From positions 1-64,000 of the forward strand of contig PWZL01000030.1 in assembly GCA_003567475.1 (NCBI GenBank): a stretch of DNA of 64,000 nucleotides. Reading direction: 5' to 3'. Numbering within the stretch: the first letter of the stretch is position 1; every line of letters begins with the position of its first letter. The DNA is from Gammaproteobacteria bacterium. Its GTDB lineage: Bacteria > Pseudomonadota > Gammaproteobacteria > Steroidobacterales > PWYM01. The translations under genes were made by a program, and so were the position numbers. Below are positions 22,372 to 25,896 of this stretch, piece by piece. The notes beneath the pieces were generated by a model. It did no database searches. It was not told where the DNA came from and was given only the letters and a program-made list of their open reading frames with translations.

Positions 22372-23097
22372 ATGTTCCGGCACCAGACCGATCCCACCCG
22401 CCTGCGAGTGCTTTCGCTCGATCTCGACGACACCCTGTGGGATGTCGCGCCGGTGATCGAGGGCGCGGAGCAGGCGCTGCGCGCGTGGCTGGGCCGCCAC
22501 TGCCCGCGGGTCACAGCCCGGTATTCGCCGCACGGGCTGCGGAGCCTGCGTGACCAGATCAACCGGGAGCATCCGGACCGCGCGCATGACCTCAGCTGGA
22601 TGCGTGTGCGGACGCTCGAGCTGGCACTGGAGGGCTGCGGGTATCCGTCGGCGCTTGCGGGCGATGCGTTCGAGGTGTTCCTCGCCGCGCGCAACCGCGT
22701 TGCGCTGCATGCCGATGTGCTGCCGGCGCTCGACGCGCTGCAGCGACGGTATACGCTGGTGGCCCTGACCAACGGCAATGCGGATCTCGCGCGGGTCGGC
22801 CTGGAGCGCTATTTCGATCACTACCTGTGTGCCCGGGGGGTCGGGGCCGCCAAGCCCGACCCCCGCATGTTCCACGCCGTCACTGAGGCCACGGGCCACG
22901 CGCCGGAGACGGTACTGCATATCGGCGACGACCCCGTGCGCGATGTCGTCGGTGCGGCGCGGGCCGGCATGCTGACGGCCTGGGTCAACCGGCGGGGTGC
23001 CCCGTGGCCTGTCGATCATCCGCCGCCGGACACGCGGATCAGCGAACTGCTCACGCTGTCGGACTGGCTGCTCAGGGCGGCGTCTCCGGGGCGCTGA
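22372..23097 (+). CDS. HAD-superfamily hydrolase
   Basis: LSLDLDDTLWDV motif I, 'LTNGNADL', 'KPDPRMF', 'HIGDDPVRDVVGA'. Confidence 0.92.
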   Translation: MFRHQTDPTRLRVLSLDLDDTLWDVAPVIEGAEQALRAWLGRHCPRVTARYSPHGLRSLRDQINREHPDRAHDLSWMRVRTLELALEGCGYPSALAGDAFEVFLAARNRVALHADVLPALDALQRRYTLVALTNGNADLARVGLERYFDHYLCARGVGAAKPDPRMFHAVTEATGHAPETVLHIGDDPVRDVVGAARAGMLTAWVNRRGAPWPVDHPPPDTRISELLTLSDWLLRAASPGR

Positions 23098-24526
23098 ACG
23101 TCACGTCGATGCGCCGGTTGCGTGCACGGCCTTCCGCGGTGTCGTCGGTGGCGATGGGCCGGGCCGACCCCAGGCCGATCGCGCGCAATCTCGCACGCGC
23201 GAGGCCCTCAGCCTCCACGAGGTAGTCCACCACCGCGTCGGCACGCTCCTGCGAGAGCCGCAGGTTCAGCTGTGCGCTGCCGCGCGAGTCGGTATGGCCC
23301 TCGACCGTGAACCGGGCCTGGGGAAAGATGTTCGCGGCCTCGGCGAGGCGCGCCAGCAGCGGCCGTGCCGCGCTGTCGATGGCCGCGCTCCCGGTGGCGA
23401 AATTCAGGCCGACGAGACGCACGATCACCTGTTCGCCCTCGCGCAGGACCACCGCCTCGTCGCGCTCGAACAGCGCTTCGAGTCGCGCGAACTGTGCCCG
23501 TACCTGCGCCTGTGCCTCCAGCGCCATGATCAGCTCGGAGCGTTCCCGCGCGACGCCGCCGAGCTGGCGATCGAGCTCGCGGAGCTCCTCGTCCATCGCG
23601 AGCACGCGCTGGTTGGCCGCGGTGAGCTCCGCCTCGCTGCGTTTCAGGCGTGTTTCCAGCGTATCGAGGTGGGCGATCAGGGCCTCACCGAGCGCTTCGG
23701 GACGACCCGCCTCGGCATCCTCCAGCCCGGCTGCCCGGGCCGCCGCGCGCAGTGGTGCTTCCTGCGCCAGCAGCGCCGCCTCCACGCTCCCCCCGCGGCT
23801 GCGCGCCTGCTGCACGGCCGAGGCCAGCGCCCGCGCATGTCGCGCCAGCGCCTCGGCCCGGGCGGCGAGGCTGGTCGCCGCGTCGACCGCTTGCCGGTCC
23901 TCGCCCAGCGTCTCTTCGGCCTGCGCCAGCACCGCCTGCGCGCGCGCCAGCGTCTCGGGCGCATGGCGCTCGACCCGGGCGGCCCGTGCCTCGGCAATTT
24001 CCGCGCGCGCGCGGCTGAGCAGCCGGCCCTCGATCGCGAGCAGCTCGACGGCGAGGTATTCGGCGGTGGCGGCGTCGGTGAGTTCGCCGGCGCGCTCGGT
24101 GCGGCCGCGCTCGCGCGCGACGGTGGCGGTGGCCAGCGCGCGCTCCGCCGACTGCCAGGCGGCCGGGTAGAGCTGATCAGCGGCGTTTTCCAGCGCGGCG
24201 GCCCGCGCTTGCAGGGGGGCGGCAAACTCGGGCTGGGTGCCGGTGGCGTGGCGGGCAGCGGCCGTGAATGCCGCCTCCGCCTCGTCGAGGTCGCGGCGGA
24301 TCCGCTCGAGCGCACGCCCTCGGGCGTAGTCTGCGCGGGCGCGCTCCAGTGCCGCCTCGGCCTGTCCCTGGGCCTCAGGGGCAAGCAGCTCGGCGCGCGC
24401 AGCCAGGGCTTCGGCGCGCGCCGCTTCCGCCGGACCGAACAGGGAATCGCGCACGTCATCCGCCAGCAGCGGAACGCTCGTCAGGCAGCACAGGAGCAAC
24501 AGGGCGGAGCGACAGCTTCGGATCAT
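23072..24526 (-). CDS. OmpA family protein with N-terminal DUF4398-like coiled coil
   Basis: C-terminal 'FTVEGHTDSRGSAQLNLRLSQERADAVVDYLV' OmpA peptidoglycan-binding motif; signal peptide from M at 24526. Confidence 0.9.
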   Translation of the reverse strand: MIRSCRSALLLLCCLTSVPLLADDVRDSLFGPAEAARAEALAARAELLAPEAQGQAEAALERARADYARGRALERIRRDLDEAEAAFTAAARHATGTQPEFAAPLQARAAALENAADQLYPAAWQSAERALATATVARERGRTERAGELTDAATAEYLAVELLAIEGRLLSRARAEIAEARAARVERHAPETLARAQAVLAQAEETLGEDRQAVDAATSLAARAEALARHARALASAVQQARSRGGSVEAALLAQEAPLRAAARAAGLEDAEAGRPEALGEALIAHLDTLETRLKRSEAELTAANQRVLAMDEELRELDRQLGGVARERSELIMALEAQAQVRAQFARLEALFERDEAVVLREGEQVIVRLVGLNFATGSAAIDSAARPLLARLAEAANIFPQARFTVEGHTDSRGSAQLNLRLSQERADAVVDYLVEAEGLARARLRAIGLGSARPIATDDTAEGRARNRRIDVTFSAPETPP

Positions 24527-24583
24527 CAGGGGCTTCCGGGGAGGGGTCAGGTTGAAGGTCAGTGTAGCCATTCAGGCTGCAAA

Positions 24584-24787
24584 TGTGCGCGAGCGCACAC
24601 CTTCGAGCCGCCCCGGGCGGGGTGCATTGGAAAAAGTGTGCCGTGGCTCACGGCTGGCAGCATACCCCGCGATCTATGCTGTTTCCGCGAGTGCGCTGAC
24701 CGCCCAGGAGGTCTGCCGCGCTCGCACTTTCCTCCTGAGAGTGTCATCCCCCTGAAATTATCCCGGCGCCCGCGCCGGGATTTTTTT
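24584..24787 (+). ncRNA. Candidate structured RNA (sRNA or leader) ending in an intrinsic terminator; no known family recognised
   Basis: Consecutive hairpins TGTGCGC-GA-GCGCACA, CCGCCC-C-GGGCGG, GCCGTG-GCT-CACGGC, CAGCATA-N10-TATGCTG, plus long-range GGAAA..GTGTG/CGCAC..TTTCC, then terminator. Confidence 0.5.
24760..24787 (+). terminator. Strong intrinsic terminator with no annotated + strand gene immediately upstream
   Basis: ATCCCGGCGC-CC-GCGCCGGGAT followed by T-tract (24781-24787). Confidence 0.88.
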
Positions 24788-24849
24788 ATCCGCCTCGGTG
24801 ACTGGCGACCGGTCTCCCGGAGCGGCTTGGGGCGGGCGCGCGCGCGTGC

Positions 24850-24855
24850 GACAAT
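24850..24855 (+). promoter_or_regulatory. Candidate -10 (GACAAT) of lipA, downstream of the terminator
   Basis: gcgtgcGACAATgcc, 36 nt before GTG 24892. Confidence 0.35.
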
Positions 24856-24891: not shown

Positions 24892-25896
24892 GTGAGTGAT
24901 TTCAGAGGCATTCCGGTGGTGGTCAGCGGTGGCAAGTTCCGCACCGAGCAGGGCTTTACCGCCATCAAGAACGGGGTCAAGCAGCGCACGGACCGCGAAG
25001 CCCCCGCGCGCGGGCAGAAACCGCGCTGGCTGCGTGCGCCGATGCCCTCGGGAAAAGTGTTCAGCGAGGTGCGCGAGGTGGTCCGTGAGCATCGGCTCGC
25101 CACCGTATGCGAGGAGTCGATGTGTCCGAACATCGGCGAGTGCTGGAATAACGGCACGGCCACGCTGATGCTTATGGGGGCGGTGTGTACGCGGGCCTGC
25201 CAGTTCTGTGCGGTCGACACTGGCAACCCGCGCGGCTGGCTCGATCCCGACGAACCGGCCCATGCCGCACGCTCGGTGCAGTTGATGCGCCTGAAATACG
25301 TGGTGCTGACCTCGGTGGACCGGGACGATCTGCCCGACGGCGGTGCGGCGCACTATGCCGCCTGCGTGCGCGCCATCAAGGCACTGAATCCAGAGACCGC
25401 CGTCGAGGCGCTCACACCCGATTTCGCCGGTCGCCATGACTGCGTGGCCACGGTGGTGGACTCCGGGCTGGAGGTGTTCGCGCAGAACGTCGAGACGGTA
25501 CGCCGGCTCACCCACCCGGTGCGCGATCCGCGCGCCGGCTACGAGCAGACCCTTGATGTGCTGGCCCAGGCCAAACGCCACCGCCCGGAGGTGATCACCA
25601 AGACCAGTCTGATGGTCGGGTTGGGCGAGACCGACGAGGAGATCGCCGAGACCATGGATGATCTGCGCGCGGCGGACGTCGACATCGTCACTTTCGGCCA
25701 ATATCTGCGCCCGACCGTGAATCACCTGCCGGTGGAGCGCTACGTCACGCCCGAGCAGTTCGCCCTGTACCGGCAATGGGGGCTCGCGCGGGGGTTCATG
25801 GAGGTCGTCTCCGGGCCCCTGGTGCGTTCGAGTTACCGCGCCGATCGCGTATTCGAGCAGAACAACGTCGGCCTCGCGGCCGCAGACCGCGCGTGA
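24892..25896 (+). CDS. lipA: Lipoyl synthase
   Basis: '[40 protein letters not shown]' with both Fe-S cysteine motifs. Confidence 0.97.

Follow-up and report, generated by a model that had tools for sequence, protein, structure and literature searches.

A predicted CRP-activated small RNA upstream of lipA, likely the ORF-less remnant of a dual-function RNA

Introduction

Spot 42 and AzuCR are small RNAs (sRNAs) that also encode small proteins, and a C-rich pairing stretch is a feature of the sRNA CyaR. CyaR is activated by CRP, and Spot 42 and AzuCR are repressed by it (PMC8672173). In VcdRP of Vibrio cholerae, four consecutive cytosines form the seed, a protein of 29 residues is encoded, and CRP acts as a repressor (PMC8672173).

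The locus in this study is flanked by lipA and a divergent ompA-like gene, in a window of 64,000 nucleotides (64 kb) of gammaproteobacterial DNA. Woeseiaceae and related gammaproteobacteria are common in sediments, and almost no RNA regulators have been described for them; a full-text literature search for Woeseia and small RNA returned no title or abstract about one. Judged from the sequence, the element is likely a CRP-activated, trans-acting sRNA of about 101 nt and what is left of a dual-function RNA after loss of its ORF (Table 1).

Table 1. Features of the ompA-like/lipA region. G000 is the genome of the window; G002 and G003 carry the other two ORF-less copies of the unit in this clade.
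Feature	Position	Strand	Basis
ompA-like gene, conserved upstream neighbour, divergent	23072..24526	-	PF00691; arrangement also in G004 and Woeseiaceae
Second CRP-like dyad TGTGCGCGAGCGCACA	24584..24599		third-best matrix score in the window, 12.9 bits
CRP-type activator site TGTGCCGTGGCTCACG	24637..24652 (centre 24644.5)	+	42.5 bp upstream of predicted RNA start 24687
-10 element TATGCT	24675..24680	+	21-22 nt past the CRP site in G000, G002, G003 and f5
Predicted sRNA, 101 nt, without ORF	24687..24787	+	promoter geometry, terminator, fold z -6.4, 99-nt orthologs in G002 and G003
5' hairpin of predicted RNA	24687..24725	+	starts at predicted +1 in G000, G002, G003
C-rich motif CCUCCUGAG, anti-Shine-Dalgarno-like	24731..24739	+	identical in G000, G002, G003, G004
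C-rich motif CCCCCUGA, presumed base-pairing seed	24748..24755	+	common to families f1, f2, f5, f6, f15
Intrinsic terminator with 7-T run	24760..24787	+	terminator scan; kept in all relatives
Probable lipA -10, GACAAT	24850..24855	+	conserved just 5' of lipA in f1 and Woeseiaceae
lipA, encoding lipoyl synthase; conserved gene on the downstream side, outside RNA	24892..25896	+	PF04055, PF16881; start VSDFRG common to relatives

Limits and fold of the predicted RNA

The sequence supports an independent + strand RNA at 24687-24787 with a predicted start. The initial annotation had proposed an independent RNA ending at the terminator, which stands, and extending from 24584, which does not. All the inverted repeats that it named are present, as is the terminator, at or within 1-2 bases of where they had been placed; the terminator was recovered independently by a terminator scan, as one of 2 terminator-like sites (0.5 expected in shuffles). 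Folding energies compared with shuffled sequences gave z -6.4 for 24687-24788 and z -3.6 for 24560-24788.

The predicted RNAs of G000, G002, and G003 are 101, 99, and 99 nt long. In each, a hairpin of 37-41 nt (z -4.0, -2.6, and -3.2) starts at the predicted +1; its sequence is just 54-67% identical among the three genomes, and in the window its base is formed by GCGAG/CTCGC. In the predicted folds the hairpin is followed by C-rich motifs that are mostly unpaired, and then by the terminator; in the RNA of the window, CUCCU lies in a small loop. When orthologous loci were compared, as had been suggested, the C-rich motifs and the terminator were found to be conserved, and covariation in the 5' hairpin was not significant with just three ORF-less genomes of the clade.

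The fold proposed earlier for the left half was not retained. TGTGCGC-GA-GCGCACA and GCCGTG-GCT-CACGGC, previously read as RNA hairpins, are the cores of CRP-like DNA dyads (TGTGN8CACR) conserved in the sister genomes, the first at 24584-24599 and the second in a register moved to 24637-24652. The long-range pairings GGGGTG/CATCCCC and GGAAA..GTGTG/CGCAC are rejected since they would need untranscribed DNA, and the multibranched fold over 24584-24787 falls with the finding that operator DNA makes up its 5' half. The earlier view that no known RNA family is involved agrees with the Rfam scan, which gave no match at the gathering threshold in the 64 kb window; at a permissive threshold the best match was anti-hemB (29.5 vs 49.5 bits), mainly to the terminator.

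A class II CRP-type promoter

The initial annotation had overlooked a CRP-type promoter, the conservation of the C-rich motifs, and a small protein gene in the unit of relatives. A CRP site centred at about -41.5 with a -10 element downstream is the geometry of class II CRP-dependent promoters. With a matrix built from 64 Woeseiaceae sites, none of them from the clade of the window, position 24637 received the top score on both strands of the 64 kb window (19.9 bits; next 13.4), although its half-sites read TGTGC..TCACG, not TGTGA..TCACA. The site is 14/16 identical for every pair among the three sister genomes, whereas the 22 bp past it are 32-41% identical, and it coincides in place with the -41.5 site of a gene, X, in relatives. 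At the place corresponding to the -10 element, which in the window is overlapped by the CAGCATA/TATGCTG repeat, Woeseiaceae have TA(G/A)TCT-like hexamers. A CRP ortholog is encoded in the genome (equivalog NF008732, 319 bits vs a cut-off of 266). Overall, the position of the site, the -10 element, and the CRP gene are those of a class II CRP-type promoter, whose start is predicted.

The unit in related genomes

In congeneric genomes, the DNA match is limited to the right-hand part of the region, from about 24704. A conserved block, CUUUCCUCCUGAG-GUGUCAUCCCCCUGAAUUAUCCCGGC...GCCGGGAUUUUUUU, lies directly 5' of lipA in G002 and G003, and in part in G004. A pattern of CCCCTGA followed by a CCCGG terminator was present in 69 of 296 genomes of the order, nearly always as a single match, and its reversed control gave no match in the same 296 genomes. 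Most of the matches are from Woeseiaceae, in which the C-rich element is the 3' UTR of the 65-codon gene X.

The syntenic unit (62 loci, nearly all from Woeseiaceae) consists of a CRP site, ORF X, UUCCCCCUGA, and the terminator. The distance from the centre of TGTGN8CACA/G to the A of the ATG of X is 41.5 bp in 54 of the 62 loci, 42.5 in seven, and 43.5 in one, and a TA(G/A)TCT-like -10 lies six bases 5' of the ATG. Since the site is centred 41.5 bp from the ATG, the X mRNA appears to be leaderless. A CRP-type site is also found at most X loci of other families.

A C-run seed lies between the X ORF and the terminator in Woeseiaceae, f2, f5, f15, and f1; the C-rich motif common to families f1, f2, f5, f6, and f15 reads CCCCCUGA or CCCCCUGU. 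Because the set was selected by pattern, CCCCTGA is in part conserved there by construction; conserved independently of the selection are UU before CCCCTGA and a CTGGCG motif (57/61), and, among 20 X loci retrieved by protein match alone, 8 (f2, f5, f15) have UUCCCCCUGU 5' of the terminator.

Variants of the unit were also observed. In several Woeseiaceae (L125:5582-5750, L019, L047) the stretch from X to lipA holds a second copy of CCCCUGA plus terminator; G209 has three such copies, two of them within a tandem repeat of ~139 bp. In f10 (L206, L209, L214, L215) another motif stands in the 3' UTR of X. In L209, L214, and L215 it reads (U)CCCCUGGCGGACUU(C), and it may have diverged from a combination of CUUCUGGCG and CCCCUGA, the motifs of Woeseiaceae. 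Outside these families, many Bradyrhizobium species have, downstream of an unrelated gene ending in ..VNRCY (L073, L075, L081, L092, L102, L114, L115, L128), a UUCCCCCUGA-CUGACGCCCCGGC terminator that is conserved and is possibly an independent C-rich 3' UTR sRNA.

Protein X

X has 65 residues, MSAKYYTQF..EFSGVVEL..IEALLARNFDL..VKLVSWSRLH (L063:1280-1477 and relatives), and a pN/pS-type ratio of 0.19 among relatives. Profile searches found it in 128 of 196 genomes of the order, in many families, and in 3 of 369 genomes sampled from the class, all three of the same order. No match was found in Pfam, NCBIfam, or PDB. The AlphaFold model has a beta-beta-alpha-beta arrangement (pLDDT 86), for which Foldseek returned no significant match, the best being archaeal ribosomal LX domains (E 0.05). 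X therefore appears, from these searches, to be an orphan family of small proteins that occurs, among the genomes sampled, in one order alone.

Loss of the ORF and selection on the RNA

X is absent from G000 (98% complete), G002, and G003 by profile search, and is kept at the same place, 5' of lipA, in G004 and G001 of the same genus. In a comparison of LipA sequences the three ORF-less genomes group together on short branches, which is consistent with a single loss of the ORF. Thus, the window has no small protein on the transcript of the predicted RNA; in relatives the sequence places one there.

One alternative is that the C-rich motif and terminator are merely the 3' end of the X mRNA, the locus in the window being a decaying remnant without a regulatory RNA. 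In its favour, X is the widespread part of the unit (the 128 of 196 genomes above), the X loci of f4, f7, f8, f11, f16, and G070 are without the C-rich motif, and a search for targets, described below, found none. However, promoter, motif, and terminator are strongly constrained in the ORF-less copies although fourfold-degenerate sites of lipA differ by 34-43% among the three genomes, and f5 keeps an ORF-less CRP unit separate from X. Outside the terminator, positions 24726-24759 are identical at 32/34, 32/34, and 33/33 sites, vs 57-66% at the lipA fourfold sites, a rate at which 33/33 would arise by chance with a probability of about 1e-6. Decay without a regulatory RNA is thus unlikely.

In the f5 genomes G054, G103, and G070, the ORF-less unit stands beside a GIY-YIG-like gene and X is present elsewhere in the genome. 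This unit has TGTGA-N6-TCACA, a -10 element 21 bp on, ~56 nt, UUUCCCCCUGAA at the end, and a terminator. The 3' UTR of the X unit in G070 is without the C-rich motif, and in G001 X is kept and the C-rich motif is degraded. Taken with the f5 units, these patterns suggest that either part, protein or RNA, can be lost without the other. All of the f5 ORF-less CRP-seed units (L377, L378, L379) are near the GIY-YIG-like nuclease gene; the shared neighbour suggests one orthologous sRNA locus in f5.

On balance, we favour an order-wide CRP-activated dual-function RNA, a leaderless mRNA of the 65-residue X with a C-rich sRNA 3' end, which has been uncoupled at least twice, by loss of the ORF in the clade of the window and in the separate ORF-less unit of f5.

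Possible mode of action

We infer transcription of the RNA, its activation by CRP, Hfq binding, base pairing, and the existence of targets as follows. The ancestor would have been a dual-function RNA, a leaderless X mRNA whose 3' UTR had the same motif and terminator; in the clade of the window the ORF would have been lost and the RNA part retained. As is established for class II promoters, cAMP-CRP would bind 24637-24652 when the preferred carbon source is low and activate transcription from the promoter with its -10 at 24675. The U tail may bind Hfq, as is established for Hfq-dependent sRNAs; the tail has 7 T, the hallmark being 7 or more, and Hfq is encoded in the genome (PF17209, 104.8 bits). 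Through the C-rich seeds CCUCCUGAG and CCCCCUGA the RNA would then regulate target mRNAs by base pairing with their G-rich ribosome-binding sites.

Targets were sought as seed complements at ribosome-binding sites in 34 Woeseiaceae genomes, with a G-rich Shine-Dalgarno sequence as control. TonB-dependent receptors were striking among the first loci and then had a similar share in the control, the excess among seed-complement genes not being significant (Plug domain 14/45 vs 8/49 in the control, p = 0.14).

The C-rich motif could have another role, for example in mRNA stability or protein binding. It is improbable that it binds or titrates a protein or acts on ribosomes, as a sponge or anti-Shine-Dalgarno mimic; CCUCCUGA and CCCCCUGA resemble the 16S anti-Shine-Dalgarno and no specific target class stood out in the search, but C-rich seeds such as the four cytosines of VcdR act on specific mRNAs (PMC8672173).

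Neighbouring genes

GACAAT at 24850, pointed out earlier as a -10-like element, is real and is probably the -10 of lipA, since it is conserved 5' of lipA in relatives. An attenuator or riboswitch-type leader of lipA, the other reading offered by the initial annotation, can be set aside as very improbable: the RNA is directly 5' of lipA on the same strand, but it ends upstream of lipA's own conserved promoter, encodes its own protein in relatives, occurs in units away from lipA (e.g. f5), and has no Rfam riboswitch match. A transcript shared with lipA is likewise not supported by the order of elements, in which the terminator precedes the conserved -10.

The distal dyad probably belongs to the promoter of the divergent ompA-like gene; in all three sister genomes it is 17 bp from TACACT (24566-24561, - strand). 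Because this gene has its own conserved CRP-like dyad near a -10-like hexamer (24561-24599 in total), it may be co-regulated with the predicted RNA. A fixed tandem-CRP arrangement was considered and rejected: the spacing of the two dyads is 53, 50, and 52 bp in the three genomes, nearly all relatives are without the second site, and the distal dyad fits the divergent promoter.

Comparison with known systems

For a group with so few described RNA regulators, the locus offers a CRP-linked candidate with a predicted start, seed, and terminator, adds an orphan small-protein family known from one order alone, and may show, as a natural experiment, how one function of a dual-function RNA is lost.

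Among known RNAs, anti-hemB (RF02837) and the Betaproteobacteria toxic sRNA (RF02278) are similarly short, with CUCC-rich stretches and a strong terminator; however, their scores of 29.5 and 21 bits are far under the gathering thresholds of 49.5 and 50, and the match is mostly to the terminator. Spot 42 and AzuCR resemble the unit as CRP-controlled sRNAs with small proteins, but they are CRP-repressed, lie at a different locus, and have no Rfam match in the window. CyaR of Enterobacteria is likewise CRP-activated with C-rich pairing, as is predicted for the RNA of the window, but it also lies at a different locus without an Rfam match here; we know of no protein-coding ancestor of CyaR.

By analogy, VcdRP of V. 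cholerae appears to be the closest described system. Like the unit in relatives, it is a CRP-controlled RNA with a small protein and a C-run seed between ORF and terminator. However, vcdRP is under repression by CRP and the geometry of the site in this study is that of an activator; VcdP has 29 residues and X 65, with no sequence relation seen. The leaderless X mRNA and the ORF-less form in the window are both unlike VcdRP. The RNA family is therefore new, being without a match in Rfam, Pfam, or NCBIfam, but of a kind already known, a CRP-controlled and ancestrally perhaps dual-function sRNA; what sets the locus apart from that kind is the leaderless ORF in relatives and its loss.
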